A stretch of DNA of 64,000 nt from Prauserella aidingensis. Its GTDB lineage: Bacteria; Actinomycetota; Actinomycetes; Mycobacteriales; Pseudonocardiaceae. The translations under genes and the position numbers were made by a program. Below are positions 41,209 to 45,199 of the stretch, one piece after another. Where the stretch lies: assembly GCF_024171865.1 (NCBI RefSeq), contig NZ_JAMTCN010000006.1, positions 124,001 to 188,000 on the forward strand, given 5' to 3'. The notes beneath the pieces are model-generated. The model worked only from the letters and a program-made list of their open reading frames with translations. It was not told the DNA's origin and did not search any database. Within the stretch, counting starts at the first letter, position 1, and each line of letters begins with the position of its first letter.

Positions 41209-41300
41209 GCCCCGGAACCCGCAACACGGCCTCCGGGATCCGCAACACGGTCCCCCGGGAACGCAACACGGGCCCCGGGATCCGCAACACGCGCGGGTCG
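41209..41300. repeat. Four imperfect ~21-nt tandem units
   Basis: Four units sharing CCGGRAYCCGCAACACGG follow each other, with cores GGAACCCGCAACACGG, GGGATCCGCAACACGG, GGGAACGCAACACGGG and GGGATCCGCAACACGC. They lie between the ispE start and the MetN-like stop, inside a 313-bp gap with no gene. The period is close to that of the array at 1919-1980. Confidence 0.75.
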
Positions 41301-41301
41301 G

Positions 41302-42312
41302 TCAGGCGGCGACGGTACGCAGGCCGCAGAGGGTGTGCGTGACGTGGGCGCCGCGCTCGGCCATCCACGCCAGCGCCGCGTCGGCCCGCTGCCCCCGCAG
41401 GCCGATGCGGAACCGCGCGACAGGTGTGTCCCCGAACCGCGTCAGTCCACCGCCGATCGTCGCGATCTCGACGTCGAAGCGGCCGCCCGCCTCCGGCAGG
41501 AGCGCACCGACCGAGGCGAAGCCGACGAGCACGACGTCCACGACCACGTCGAACCGCGCCGCCTCGGCCGGGGACGTCTCCACCGACGGGAGCAGTTCGT
41601 CGGCGATCCGGCTGCCGCGCGTACCGGCCAGCGTCAGCAGGTTGCCGCTCTCGACGACCGAGCCGTGGTCGAGCAGTGCCACGTCGTCGCACACACGCCG
41701 CGCCACACCCGCCTCCGACGTCGTCAGCAACACGGTCGCGCCCAGTTCCGCACGCGCCCGGTCGAGCACCGACAGCACGGCGCCGCTCTCGTCGGCGTCG
41801 ACACCGGACGTCGGATCGTCGGCGAGCAGCACCGCGGGCCCGCCCGCGAGTGCCCGCGCCACCGACACCCGGCGCTGCTGCCCCGGCGTCAGGTCGGCGG
41901 GAACCTGCGCGGCGGCACGGCTCAGACCGATGACGTCCAGCAGCGTGGCGACGCGCTGCCTCCTGCGCGCACCGTCGACGCCCACCCGCTCGAGCGGGGC
42001 GGCGATGTTTCCGGCGACGGTCCGTTCCGGGCGCAGCCGCGAGTCGACCACCGCGACCTGGCTCTGCGCCTCGCGCAGCTTGCGCCCGTCGAGGGTGGTC
42101 GTGTTCAGCCCGTCGTAGCGGACGGAGCCGCGGTCGGGGCGCTCCCGCAGCGCGACGCAGCGCGCCAGCGTCGACTTGCCCGCGCCCGTCTCGCCGACGA
42201 CGCCGAACAGCGCGCCCGCTTCGACATCCAGGTTGACGTCGTGCAGCGCCTGCACGGGGGCGTCCGACTCGGTGGTGCGGAACGACTTGCTGACGTTCTC
42301 GACGGTGATCAC
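41302..42312 (-). CDS. MetN-like ABC ATPase with NIL domain, degenerate catalytic motifs
   Basis: A 336-residue protein resembling MetN, the ATPase of the D/L-methionine importer. It has Walker A GVVGETGAGKSTLARCVAL (residues 37-55). The signature is LTPGQQRRVSVARAL (141-155) where LSGGQ is usual. Walker B is AVLLADDPTSGVD with Asp166 in place of the catalytic Glu. The H-loop reads LLTTSEAG with Ser199 in place of His. The C-terminus is a NIL (methionine-binding) domain (RFDVEIATIGGGLTRFGDTP). No metI or metQ is adjacent. GTG 42312 has GGAG 6 nt upstream. A SAM riboswitch and a leader ORF precede it. Hydrolysis is probably impaired; it may work as a sensor or a regulatory partner. Confidence 0.82.
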   Translation of the reverse strand: MITVENVSKSFRTTESDAPVQALHDVNLDVEAGALFGVVGETGAGKSTLARCVALRERPDRGSVRYDGLNTTTLDGRKLREAQSQVAVVDSRLRPERTVAGNIAAPLERVGVDGARRRQRVATLLDVIGLSRAAAQVPADLTPGQQRRVSVARALAGGPAVLLADDPTSGVDADESGAVLSVLDRARAELGATVLLTTSEAGVARRVCDDVALLDHGSVVESGNLLTLAGTRGSRIADELLPSVETSPAEAARFDVVVDVVLVGFASVGALLPEAGGRFDVEIATIGGGLTRFGDTPVARFRIGLRGQRADAALAWMAERGAHVTHTLCGLRTVAA

Positions 42313-42537: not shown

Positions 42538-42630
42538 TCAGACCAGGGTGGCGGAGCGACGACACGCAGACACGGTGCGCCGACTGTGATCAACGACCAG
42601 ACGCCGGGTGAGCGGCTCGGAAAAATACAT
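42538..42630 (-). CDS. 30-residue leader peptide under the SAM riboswitch
   Basis: The ORF starts ATG 42630 with GGAGG 7 nt upstream and encodes MYFSEPLTRRLVVDHSRRTV followed by SACRRSATLV. It resembles the small actinobacterial leader peptides rich in Arg with a C-terminal Cys and an LTRR-VVD core, which precede sulphur-metabolism genes. Its ribosome site is partly inside the 3' strand of the riboswitch P1 helix, so SAM binding should hide it. It has one Met and one Cys. The next gene is the MetN-like ATPase, 225 bp downstream. Confidence 0.6.
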   Translation of the reverse strand: MYFSEPLTRRLVVDHSRRTVSACRRSATLV

Positions 42631-42638
42631 CGCGTTCC

Positions 42639-42722
42639 TCCATCGCTCCTGGCGGTAGCACCGTCCTCGAGGGAGGTTGCTGCGACGTCGACGAGCCAGG
42701 TCTCTCGGTCGCTCGGGATGGA
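42639..42722 (-). promoter_or_regulatory. SAM riboswitch (SAM-I/IV clan)
   Basis: On the minus strand, P1 is TCCATC (42722-42717) pairing with GATGGA (42644-42639). P2 is GCGAC with GTCGC, enclosing GAGAGACCTGGCTC. The conserved CAGCAACC follows and then GGTGCTAC, as in the S-box core. The P2 loop CCTGG can pair with CCAGG after GGTGCTAC, the known pseudoknot. No P4 hairpin is seen before P1, which suggests the SAM-I/IV variant. GATGGAGG contains the ribosome site of the leader ORF, so ligand binding should block its translation. Confidence 0.75.
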
Positions 42723-42730
42723 ATTCCCAC

Positions 42731-42815: not shown

Positions 42816-43685
42816 TCACACCTCGGCGGCCGCCCGCGCGATCGCCACGTACTCGTCGATGCCGAGCTGTTCACCCCTGGACCGCGGATCGACGCCGGCG
42901 GCGGCCAGGATCTCTCCCGCCCGCTCGGCCGAGCCCGCCCACGACGCGAGGGCCGCGCGCAACGTCTTCCGCCGCTGCGCGAACGCGGCGTCGACAACCG
43001 CGAACACGGTGTCGCGGTCCGCATCGGTGCGCTCGGGACCGCGGTCGAAGGCGACGAGCGACGAGTCGACGTTCGGCACCGGCCAGAACACCGACCTCGG
43101 CACGGCCGCCACTTTGCGGGCCGTGCCGTACCAGGCGAGCTTCACGCTCGGCACGCCGTAGACCCTGCCGCCGGGGCCCGCTGCCATGCGGTCGGCCACC
43201 TCGGTCTGGACCATCACGAGCACGCGCCGCAGCGACGGCAGTTCGGCGAGCAGGTGCAGCACCACGGGAACCGCGACGTTGTAGGGCAGGTTGGCGACGA
43301 GCGCGTCCGGCTCGCCGACGTGGCCGCTGTCGACCCTCAGGGCGTCGTCGGCGACGACCGCCAGCCGTGACACCGCCTCGGGGGCGTGCGCCGCCACCGT
43401 GCGTTCCAGCCGTCCCGCCAGCGCCGGGTCGATCTCCACCGCCACCACGCGCGCGCCGGTACCGAGCAGTCCGAGCGTCAGCGAACCCAGCCCGGGGCCG
43501 ACCTCGAGCACGAGCGGGTCGGTGTCGCCGTCGAGGCCGACCTCGGCCAGCTCGACGATCCGCCGCACCGTGTTGGCGTCGTGCACGAAGTTCTGGCCCA
43601 GCTTCTTGGTCGGGCGGACGTCGAGCTCCTCGGCGAGCTGCCGGATCTCGGCGGGCCCCAGCAGCCCCGGTGGTTCAGCGGTCAC
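42816..43685 (-). CDS. ksgA: 16S rRNA dimethyladenosine transferase
   Basis: A 289-residue KsgA/RsmA that methylates A1518 and A1519 of 16S rRNA. N-terminus [23 protein letters not shown]-binding [17 protein letters not shown]; catalytic [17 protein letters not shown] (NLPY); then [20 protein letters not shown] and [16 protein letters not shown]. All family motifs are intact. I chose GTG 43685; no strong ribosome site precedes it. It lies downstream of rpfB in the conserved order, but a terminator between them suggests separate transcripts or readthrough. Confidence 0.95.
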
Positions 43686-43705
43686 ACCGATGAGTTCAGC
43701 ACAAC

Positions 43706-43740
43706 GCGGCCCGGCACCCCGCGAAGGGGTACCGGGCCGC
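43706..43740 (-). terminator. Terminator after rpfB
   Basis: Arms GCGGCCCGGCACCCC and GGGGTACCGGGCCGC, 14 of 15 paired with one C-A mismatch, loop GCGAA. It lies 26 bp past the rpfB stop and before ksgA. Confidence 0.7.
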
Positions 43741-43765
43741 TGTGATCGTCCGCCTGTCGCGAGCC

Positions 43766-45199
43766 TTACGTCGGCAGGCCGAGCTGCGACGCGCACGAAG
43801 GCCAGGCGCTGTAGCCGCCACGGTCGTCGCGCACCTTGGTGGCGGTGGCGATCTGCTGCTCGCGGGTCGCCTCGTGCGGGTAGGCCGCGTACTGGTCGCC
43901 TCCGTAGGCGTCCCAGGTCTGCTTGTTGAACTGCAGGCCGCCGTAGAAGCCGTTGCCCGTGCTGATGGACCAGTCGCCGCCGGACTCGCACTGGGCCAGC
44001 CGGTCCCACACGGCGCCACCGGTGATCTGTGGCTGCGGGGGCTCCTTGGTGCCCACGCGCACGACCTTGTCCTTGGCCTCCTGAAGAACCTTGGAGTCGA
44101 CCTCCTCGCGGGCGATCTCCTCACCGTTCTCCTTGGTGACCCGGTAGGTGACGAGCTCCTCGCCCGCCTTGCCGGGCTTCTCGACGACCTCCTTGCCCTG
44201 CTCCAGCTCGGGGTCCTCGATGGTGCGGACCTCGGGCTCGATGGTCTCCTTCTGCTTGACCACCGAGACGCCGGTGCGGCTGATGTAGACCTCGGCGCCG
44301 TCCTCGAGGCTCATCTGCTTGCCGCTCTGGATGCGGTCCTGCGGGCCGAGCTTCATGCCGAGCTCGTCGACCAGGTCGCCCGCGGTGACGGCGTGGGTCG
44401 TGACCTCGCGGGGCTCCTTGCCGCCGTCGTAGATCGTGACGCTCTTCTGCGTCCGGACCTCGAGCGTCATGCCGTCCAGGGGCACCTCGCTGTCGAGCGG
44501 CGCGGACAGCTTCGCACCCTCGTTCTTGAGGTCCTGCATCCCGAGCTGGGTGAGAGCCTCGTCGACGGTGGTGGCGCGGACCCACACCTGGCGCTGCTCA
44601 CCGTCGACCGACACGGTCATGTGGCGGCCGCGCTCGAGGGTGATGACGCCGCCGTCACCGACCTCAGCCTGCGGCGAGGGGGACAGCGCGTCGTGCTTGC
44701 CGACGTCGATGTCCGCGTCGTCCAGCACCTCGCCGACGGTGTCGCCGTAGCTGCGGACCGTCTGTTCCTCGCCGTCGACGTTGAGCGTGACGCTCTTGTT
44801 CATCGCCAGCGCCGCCGCACCGCCGCCGGTGAGCGTGATCAGCATGGCGAGAACCGAGCCCTTGAGGAACCGCTTCTTCCACGTCTTGACCGCGCTCGCG
44901 AGGCCGTCCTCGGGCTCCTCGACGCTCGTGCCCGCCGCCGCGGCGGGCGCGGGCGGGGTGTCGACGATCGGCGGAAGCATCGTCGTCTCGGCGTTGATCA
45001 GCCGGATGAGCTCGTCCACTCCGACATTGGCCTCGGCCATGAGTGTGTCGGCGTCGGGGCCGAGCACGGCGAGGATGTCGTCCCGCGTGATCCGCGGGTC
45101 GGAGGAGAACTCTGGGTCGCTCGGTCGGTCGAGCAGAGCCGTCGAGCCGGCCGGAGCCGACGACGAGCTCGCGTCTGCGCGCCCGTAGCTACCAGTCAC
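43766..45199 (-). CDS. rpfB: Resuscitation-promoting factor RpfB
   Basis: A 477-residue surface enzyme. The cytoplasmic N-terminus (~105 residues) is followed by one membrane helix ([20 protein letters not shown]), three DUF348 repeats (the first [20 protein letters not shown]), a G5 domain ([20 protein letters not shown]) and the C-terminal lysozyme-like Rpf domain ([20 protein letters not shown], with catalytic Glu in QCESGG). It cleaves peptidoglycan during resuscitation and growth. I prefer GTG 45199 because AAAGGG is 9 nt upstream; an in-frame GTG at 45217 is also possible. It is not lipidated, unlike mycobacterial RpfB, since no lipobox is seen. Confidence 0.93.

Follow-up and report, generated by a model that had tools for sequence, protein, structure and literature searches.

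A gene in a 64,000-nucleotide stretch of Prauserella aidingensis DNA (hereafter the window) appears to encode the surviving motor subunit of a MetNIQ importer under SAM-riboswitch control, which now probably serves as a soluble pseudo-ATPase in some role outside transport. We give this reading, drawn from comparisons of sequence, a probability of roughly 0.6. That the protein does not power transport is very likely, and that its job is a regulatory one in methionine and SAM metabolism is about an even call.

A MetN domain plan with altered ATPase motifs

The gene, its two domains and its neighbours lie in the window as follows.

41302..42312, minus strand: solo metN gene, ABC ATPase plus NIL, 336 amino acids, GTG start
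41593..42312, minus strand: nucleotide-binding domain (NBD), residues 1–240; F11, K46 and D165 kept, other motifs changed
41338..41550, minus strand: NIL domain, residues 255–325 (Pfam PF09383 at residues 257–325)
42816..44009, minus strand: ksgA, open reading frame as listed with the true start probably inside; Pfam RrnaAD, 141.6 bits
39996..41165, minus strand: ispE, open reading frame as listed with the true start probably inside; Pfam GHMP kinase N and C domains

The GTG start is backed by the invariance of I2 across 60 aligned orthologues, and a misread frame was ruled out by the GC content of the three codon positions (0.78/0.53/0.93) and by the full-length orthologues. The protein has the domain plan of MetN, an ABC domain followed by a C-terminal NIL (C2) domain, with Pfam scores of 92 bits for ABC_tran and 29.4 bits for NIL (PF09383, cut-off 24), so that the preliminary description of this DNA was right that the NIL domain is kept. 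MetN (TIGR02314) was the best NCBIfam model, at 178.5 bits, and the solved MetN chains (6CVL, 3DHW and 3TUI) aligned with residues 2–322; Rv1281c chains outscored them slightly but span the NBD only. A NIL (C2) domain is not universal in MetN, the N. meningitidis protein being described in an excerpt of one report as lacking it (PMC8416018).

Translation reproduced the signature, Asp166, Ser199 and intact Walker A reported previously. Walker A reads GETGAGKS (residues 40–47), the signature LTPGQ (141–145) and the Walker B and catalytic stretch LLADD, with Asp166 where Glu is expected; the H-loop position is Ser199 rather than His, and the Q-loop Gln, whose loss had gone unnoticed earlier, is also gone. 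The earlier statement that all ATPase motifs are altered therefore holds for the signature, the catalytic Glu and the H-loop, but not for the Walker A Lys, Asp165 or G144 and Q145 of the signature, all of which are retained. The residues by which a MetN hydrolyses ATP and couples to its permease (Q-loop Gln, LSGGQ, catalytic Glu and H-loop His) are thus absent, and what is left matches the residue pattern of a pseudo-ATPase, namely loss of Glu and His alongside a retained Walker A Lys, Walker B Asp and A-loop aromatic residue (which we take to be Phe11). The nearest named relatives are from Prauserella, and the P. isguenensis copy is 97% identical to that of the window.

The permease and binding protein are missing from the genome

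The solo metN has ksgA upstream and ispE downstream on the same strand. As previously reported, MetI and MetQ are not adjacent, and neither was found elsewhere in the genome: the assembly (99.95% complete) has zero PF03180 matches for MetQ, its sole match to MetI is 27% identical with E=0.006, and it holds no second NIL domain besides that of the window's metN. The cognate MetI and MetQ of a MetN were accordingly not found in this genome.

Across the family, 191 of 200 Pseudonocardiaceae genomes have a match with E up to 1e-30. We took E of 3e-75 or better as marking an orthologue, the remaining matches being other ABC ATPases, and by this threshold the best match is an orthologue in 167/200 genomes and 41/46 genera. 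In an order-wide draw of 348 genomes, lineage matches scored at least about 478 bits and all other listed matches at most 303, and no lineage match fell outside the Pseudonocardiaceae. Many genera of the family hold the complete ancestral unit ksgA–[SAM riboswitch]–metN–metI–metQ–ispE. The preliminary description was thus correct about the flanking genes but not about an insertion between them, since relatives carry the whole metNIQ operon at this position; a lone-gene insertion was rejected on this ground.

Nor did any of the three longer metN–ispE gaps that were read contain a MetI-like permease in place of the lost one. They encode MFS and TetR proteins or a histidine kinase: an opposite-strand MFS gene and a TetR gene separate the solo metN from ispE at L036 and L041, and a histidine kinase gene lies downstream of it at L038. 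Four more solo loci have a metN–ispE gap of similar size to that of L036 and L041. No constant new partner gene was seen beside the solo copies, whose neighbours are ksgA and ispE apart from the three inserts read. Downstream of the window's metN, the short repeat GTGTTGCGG(A/G)T(C/T)CC is present three times at 41214–41290; its 17-base form has 103 copies genome-wide, 56 on the forward strand and 47 on the reverse, versus 0 for the reversed control, and these are frequently spaced 21 or 42 bases apart.

Motif changes accompany the absence of metI and metQ

We compared 61 loci, 60 from other genomes plus the window. Both metI and metQ are present at 22, and neither was found at the other 39 (hereafter solo loci, including the unlinked paralogue L123). 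LSGGQ, the D-E and T-H pairs and the Q-loop Gln are present in 22/22 complete operons. Two solo loci of one genus, L048 and L129, retain all motifs, and L064 and L123 retain the H-loop His. In a second set, made up of the best 80 of 210 relatives, 67 loci are solo, and the alignment of orthologues proposed earlier as a check found the signature and H-loop changed in 67/67 and Glu replaced by Asp in 66/67 of them. These 67 solo loci among the best 80 comprise 45 from Amycolatopsis, nine from Prauserella, seven from Saccharomonospora and one each from Kibdelosporangium, Herbihabitans, Actinocrispum, Qaidamihabitans and two unplaced assemblies; the remaining 13 of the 80, from Umezawaea endophytica and 12 Lentzea, have the complete operon and canonical motifs. 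The paralogue (L123, also L091, in genome G010) is a second, unlinked copy; it has LSRGE, D-D and an intact H-loop but no riboswitch, and the same genome holds a complete operon (L116).

MetI is present anywhere in 12 of the 38 solo genomes, 35–38% identical to the query, and those 12 also carry a second NIL protein and a strong MetQ match, unlinked to the solo gene; the unlinked set is canonical in the three that were read (L082, L083 and L092). Genome-wide searches of the other 26, the window's included, found no MetI and no convincing MetQ; one MetI-less solo genome (G107) has a weak PF03180 match at 4.9e-5. The absence of MetI and of a convincing MetQ from 26/38 solo genomes, together with the altered motifs that solo orthologues share, upholds the earlier view that the protein has ceased to be a transporter motor.

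To define what was lost and kept, we used 124 distinct sequences, 90 solo and 34 with metIQ, with L123, L124, L198 and duplicates excluded. All 34 complete-operon sequences keep Q91, G143, E166 and H199. Among the solo copies, 78/90 are missing all four residues, eight three, two two and two none; by residue, losses number 88 for G143, 87 for His199, 86 for Gln91 and 79 for Glu166. Retention in the same 90 copies is high for the Walker A Lys46 (87), the Walker B Asp165 (89) and the A-loop Phe11 (85). The Walker A Lys is absent from three solo copies (L117, L120 and L121), which suggests that nucleotide binding is not needed everywhere.

The rest of the protein was compared in the same way. The stretch 82–96, the Q-loop and the residues after it, which we take to contribute to the groove that receives the coupling helix of the permease in type I importers, has 13 constant positions, of which only one is retained in 90% of solo copies. 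The NIL domain has 33 positions with a constancy of 95% or more among complete-operon copies, and 27 of them persist in 90% or more of the solo copies. On average, complete-operon copies are 81% identical to one another in the NBD and 74% in NIL; for 35 solo copies (L048, L129, L123 and L124 excluded) the means are 60% and 67%. As the order of the two domains is reversed in the solo copies, constraint seems to have moved towards NIL. Taken as a whole, the pattern of loss and retention is the one expected if a transport job was lost and a NIL-centred job kept.

TIGR02314 scores fit this pattern, falling from 270–286 bits in four complete-operon copies and 275.5 in L048 to 201.8 in the solo L041 and 178.5 in the window protein. 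Two criteria, however, do not discriminate here. One is the equivalog cut-off of 499.7 bits, below which all of these scores lie, complete-operon copies included. The other is a residue of the NIL domain. Ala284 of the window protein occupies the position of E. coli Asn295, which is Asn in 6/22 and another residue in 16/22 complete operons of the genome set, so that the position also varies where the importer is whole. For the E. coli protein, partial texts describe C2 (NIL) domains that dimerise, bind L-Met and keep the motor apart (PMC10710835), and an N295A substitution that makes the Ki for L-Met 28 times higher (PMC12357092).

A SAM riboswitch and a conserved leader peptide precede metN

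Between ksgA and metN the window contains the following elements.

42637..42724, minus strand: SAM riboswitch aptamer RF00162, 55.3 bits against a gathering threshold of 44.4
42637..42641, minus strand: Shine–Dalgarno GGAGG of the leader open reading frame, within the 3'-terminal part of the aptamer match, supported by an alignment of ten leaders
42538..42630, minus strand: leader open reading frame of 30 codons plus stop, MYFSEPLTRRLVVDHSRRTVSACRRSATLV, Cys-containing

The riboswitch that had been placed upstream of the gene is therefore present, and RF00162 also occurs before 42 of the 43 other lineage copies tested (13/13, 13/13 and 16/17), the sole copy without it being the unlinked paralogue L091. 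Three unlinked metQNI sets were examined, and none has a riboswitch. A leader open reading frame with a core like LTRRRVVDQGRRTVSACRR lies upstream of metN at 60/61 loci and is missing only at the paralogue. With two mismatched rows included, the leader's pN/pS is 0.49 in frame versus 1.40 and 1.63 in the other frames. The metN start lies 225 bases past the leader stop in the window. A Pfam search with the leader peptide gave no match; the Ms5788A Cys-rich leader family (NF042933) did not match the window peptide and matched two of five leader peptides weakly, the best at 17.7 bits against a cut-off of 45.

As read from sequence, a riboswitch and a conserved leader peptide are thus stacked before metN. 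SAM binding would hide the leader's Shine–Dalgarno site in the last helix of the aptamer, and the leader would in turn affect metN; because of this masking, synthesis of the protein would be expected at low SAM levels. The search of the window's genome found just one more SAM riboswitch (L112, C4:101301-101433), which lies before threonine synthase, near the start codon. SAM riboswitches are listed at threonine genes of S. lividans too in an excerpt of one study (PMC8079986). A 2005 study, in the portion seen, reports Cys leaders at mycobacterial cys operons but, in the actinobacteria that it compared, no RNA structure conserved at methionine operons (PMC1262725).

Selection on the solo gene and the order of its changes

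Against four close Prauserella, the dN/dS of the window's metN is 0.08, 0.05, 0.05 and 0.06; the same pairs give 0.09–0.20 for ksgA, 0.14–0.19 for tatD and 0.05–0.09 for ispE. Against P. rugosa (L034) it is 0.14, and other solo pairs range from 0.04 to 0.30, with the highest value in L050–L132. Values of 0.05–0.08, together with the riboswitch kept at 42 of 43 copies, argue that the window's copy is not decaying. Orthologues with normal motifs, which the preliminary description would have read as a sign of simple decay here, do exist, with metI–metQ either adjacent or recently lost (L048 and L129), but decay does not follow from them because strong purifying selection acts on the copy in the window. 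In Saccharomonospora sp. CUA-673 (L024/L124/L198) the solo metN is frameshifted in its last part, which could be a sequencing error of a draft genome.

A tree of KsgA, IspE, ABC-F and TatD (51 rows, bootstrap, LG+G4) has five changes between the solo and complete states, four forced by supported branches, and gathers 27 of its 32 solo rows on one side, with L048 and L129, L064, L066 and L118 apart. A quick flanking-gene tree of 56 rows has six changes, five forced, and a metN tree with the motif columns removed has four, three forced. Since the flanking-gene tree requires five changes, metIQ was probably lost more than once; change counts alone cannot separate loss from gain, and we read the direction as loss, the canonical motifs being the ones that MetN proteins generally have. 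Sign tests of metIQ loss against motif change in independent pairs were not significant, with only five pairs on supported branches: the two changed in the same direction in four of the five for the signature, three for the H-loop and none for Glu-to-Asp, and never in opposite directions. Glu-to-Asp is restricted to the large solo clade on the 51-row tree and recurs off the tree in the paralogue L123. Comparison of L048 and L129 with their complete-operon sister, L128, suggests that metIQ was lost first and the motifs changed afterwards.

Alternative explanations

An importer still powered through an unlinked permease, in the manner of multitask ATPases such as MsmX, would fit the retained NBD fold and Walker A; shared, unlinked ATPases exist, as partial accounts describe (PMC7658222, PMC5730181), and two solo genomes (G060 and G022) keep all motifs and have MetI elsewhere. 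We regard this as unlikely for the window's copy, in whose genome neither MetI nor MetQ was found; a search for the MetI family found none in 25/37 other solo genomes either, the MetI of the remaining 12 is accompanied by a NIL protein of its own, and the Q-loop, signature, catalytic Glu and H-loop are jointly lost in 78 of 90 solo copies. The 12 genomes with an unlinked MetI, MetQ and second NIL protein could instead suggest that the solo protein joins a functional MetN and so dampens a MetNI complex encoded elsewhere, the dominant partner proposed earlier. That proposal is not supported for the window's genome, where no such MetNI was found, and damping is very improbable as a general account, since the solo protein is kept there and in 25 other solo genomes in which the set was likewise not found.

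Slow decay of a relic following metIQ loss would account for motif positions that vary without settling on a single new residue (P, Q, R, S and others at the H-loop), for the faster evolution of some lineages and for the one frameshifted copy (L024). It is nevertheless very unlikely: the dN/dS of 0.05–0.08 in close Prauserella is like that of ispE and below those of ksgA and tatD, 66 of the 67 solo loci among the best 80 of 210 relatives have a full-length frame, NIL residues are constant across genera, and the riboswitch is retained at 42/43 copies. The near-universal leader (the open reading frame at 60/61 loci, the riboswitch at 42/43 copies) raises the idea that riboswitch and leader peptide are the conserved element and metN is carried along with them. 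The strong purifying selection on the metN frame is unexpected for such a passenger and leaves this idea scarcely credible.

A proposed soluble nucleotide-binding NIL protein

The reading that we favour, a former motor subunit in a non-transport job, takes the protein to be a regulator or scaffold in methionine and SAM metabolism because the riboswitch, the NIL domain and the nucleotide-binding residues are retained. Mg-nucleotide would still be bound, but neither hydrolysed nor used to drive a permease, and dimerisation would probably occur through the NIL domains, as in MetN; the NIL ligand could be methionine, a relative of methionine, or none. The riboswitch and the kept NIL domain would also fit the methionine- or SAM-linked sensor suggested earlier. 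More tentatively, the protein may be a liberated feedback module, a NIL protein loaded with nucleotide that it does not hydrolyse, which binds a metabolite and a protein partner and regulates methionine and SAM metabolism. This version assumes that the permease was lost several times in the family, the trees forcing between three and five changes, and that a transporter subunit was thereby repeatedly converted into a soluble regulator under its SAM riboswitch.

Genes for ABC ATPases are commonly taken for transport genes, and the label 'methionine importer subunit' would mislead where the importer is not found. Our search of open-licence PubMed Central literature found no report of a solo MetN or of this locus. 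The loci form a natural series, from the complete operon, through metIQ lost with motifs intact (L048 and L129) and motifs partly changed (L064), to fully changed copies (Prauserella and Amycolatopsis) and copies that have also lost Walker A (L117, L120 and L121), which makes it testable how a transport motor changes its role and which residues are freed without a permease. The Amycolatopsis species in our set include antibiotic producers, in which methionine and SAM control may have practical interest.

Comparison with known systems

The closest counterpart is MetN of MetNIQ. The window protein is related to E. coli MetN (3DHW and 3TUI; also 6CVL) over residues 2–322, covering both the ABC and the NIL (C2) domains, and the ksgA–metN–metI–metQ–ispE locus within the Pseudonocardiaceae adds to the likeness; the differences are that neither MetI nor MetQ was found in the window's genome and that the Q-loop Gln, the signature Gly, the catalytic Glu and the H-loop His are all changed. 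NIL/ferredoxin proteins of homocysteine synthesis offer an example of a NIL domain outside transport, in methionine supply; compared by their description only, in an excerpt, they have a ferredoxin where the window protein has an ABC domain (PMC5764234). MsmX-type ATPases resemble the solo copies in being encoded apart from their permease, but in the excerpts available they are active and serve several permeases, whereas the window protein is without the hydrolysis residues (PMC7658222, PMC5730181). ABC transporters with one degenerate nucleotide-binding site likewise have an impaired catalytic site, but keep an active partner site in the account excerpted (PMC12038006); in a homodimer of the window protein both sites would be degenerate, as the search of its genome revealed no further MetN.

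For the control region, the nearest likeness is metL of Streptomyces lividans, a 29-residue leader open reading frame before metNIQ that contains Cys and Met, with Cys near its end. In the excerpt it is presented as a case of leaderless attenuation, with the SAM riboswitch listed at threonine genes and not at metN (PMC8079986). Unlike metL, the window's leader has its Shine–Dalgarno site overlapping a SAM aptamer.
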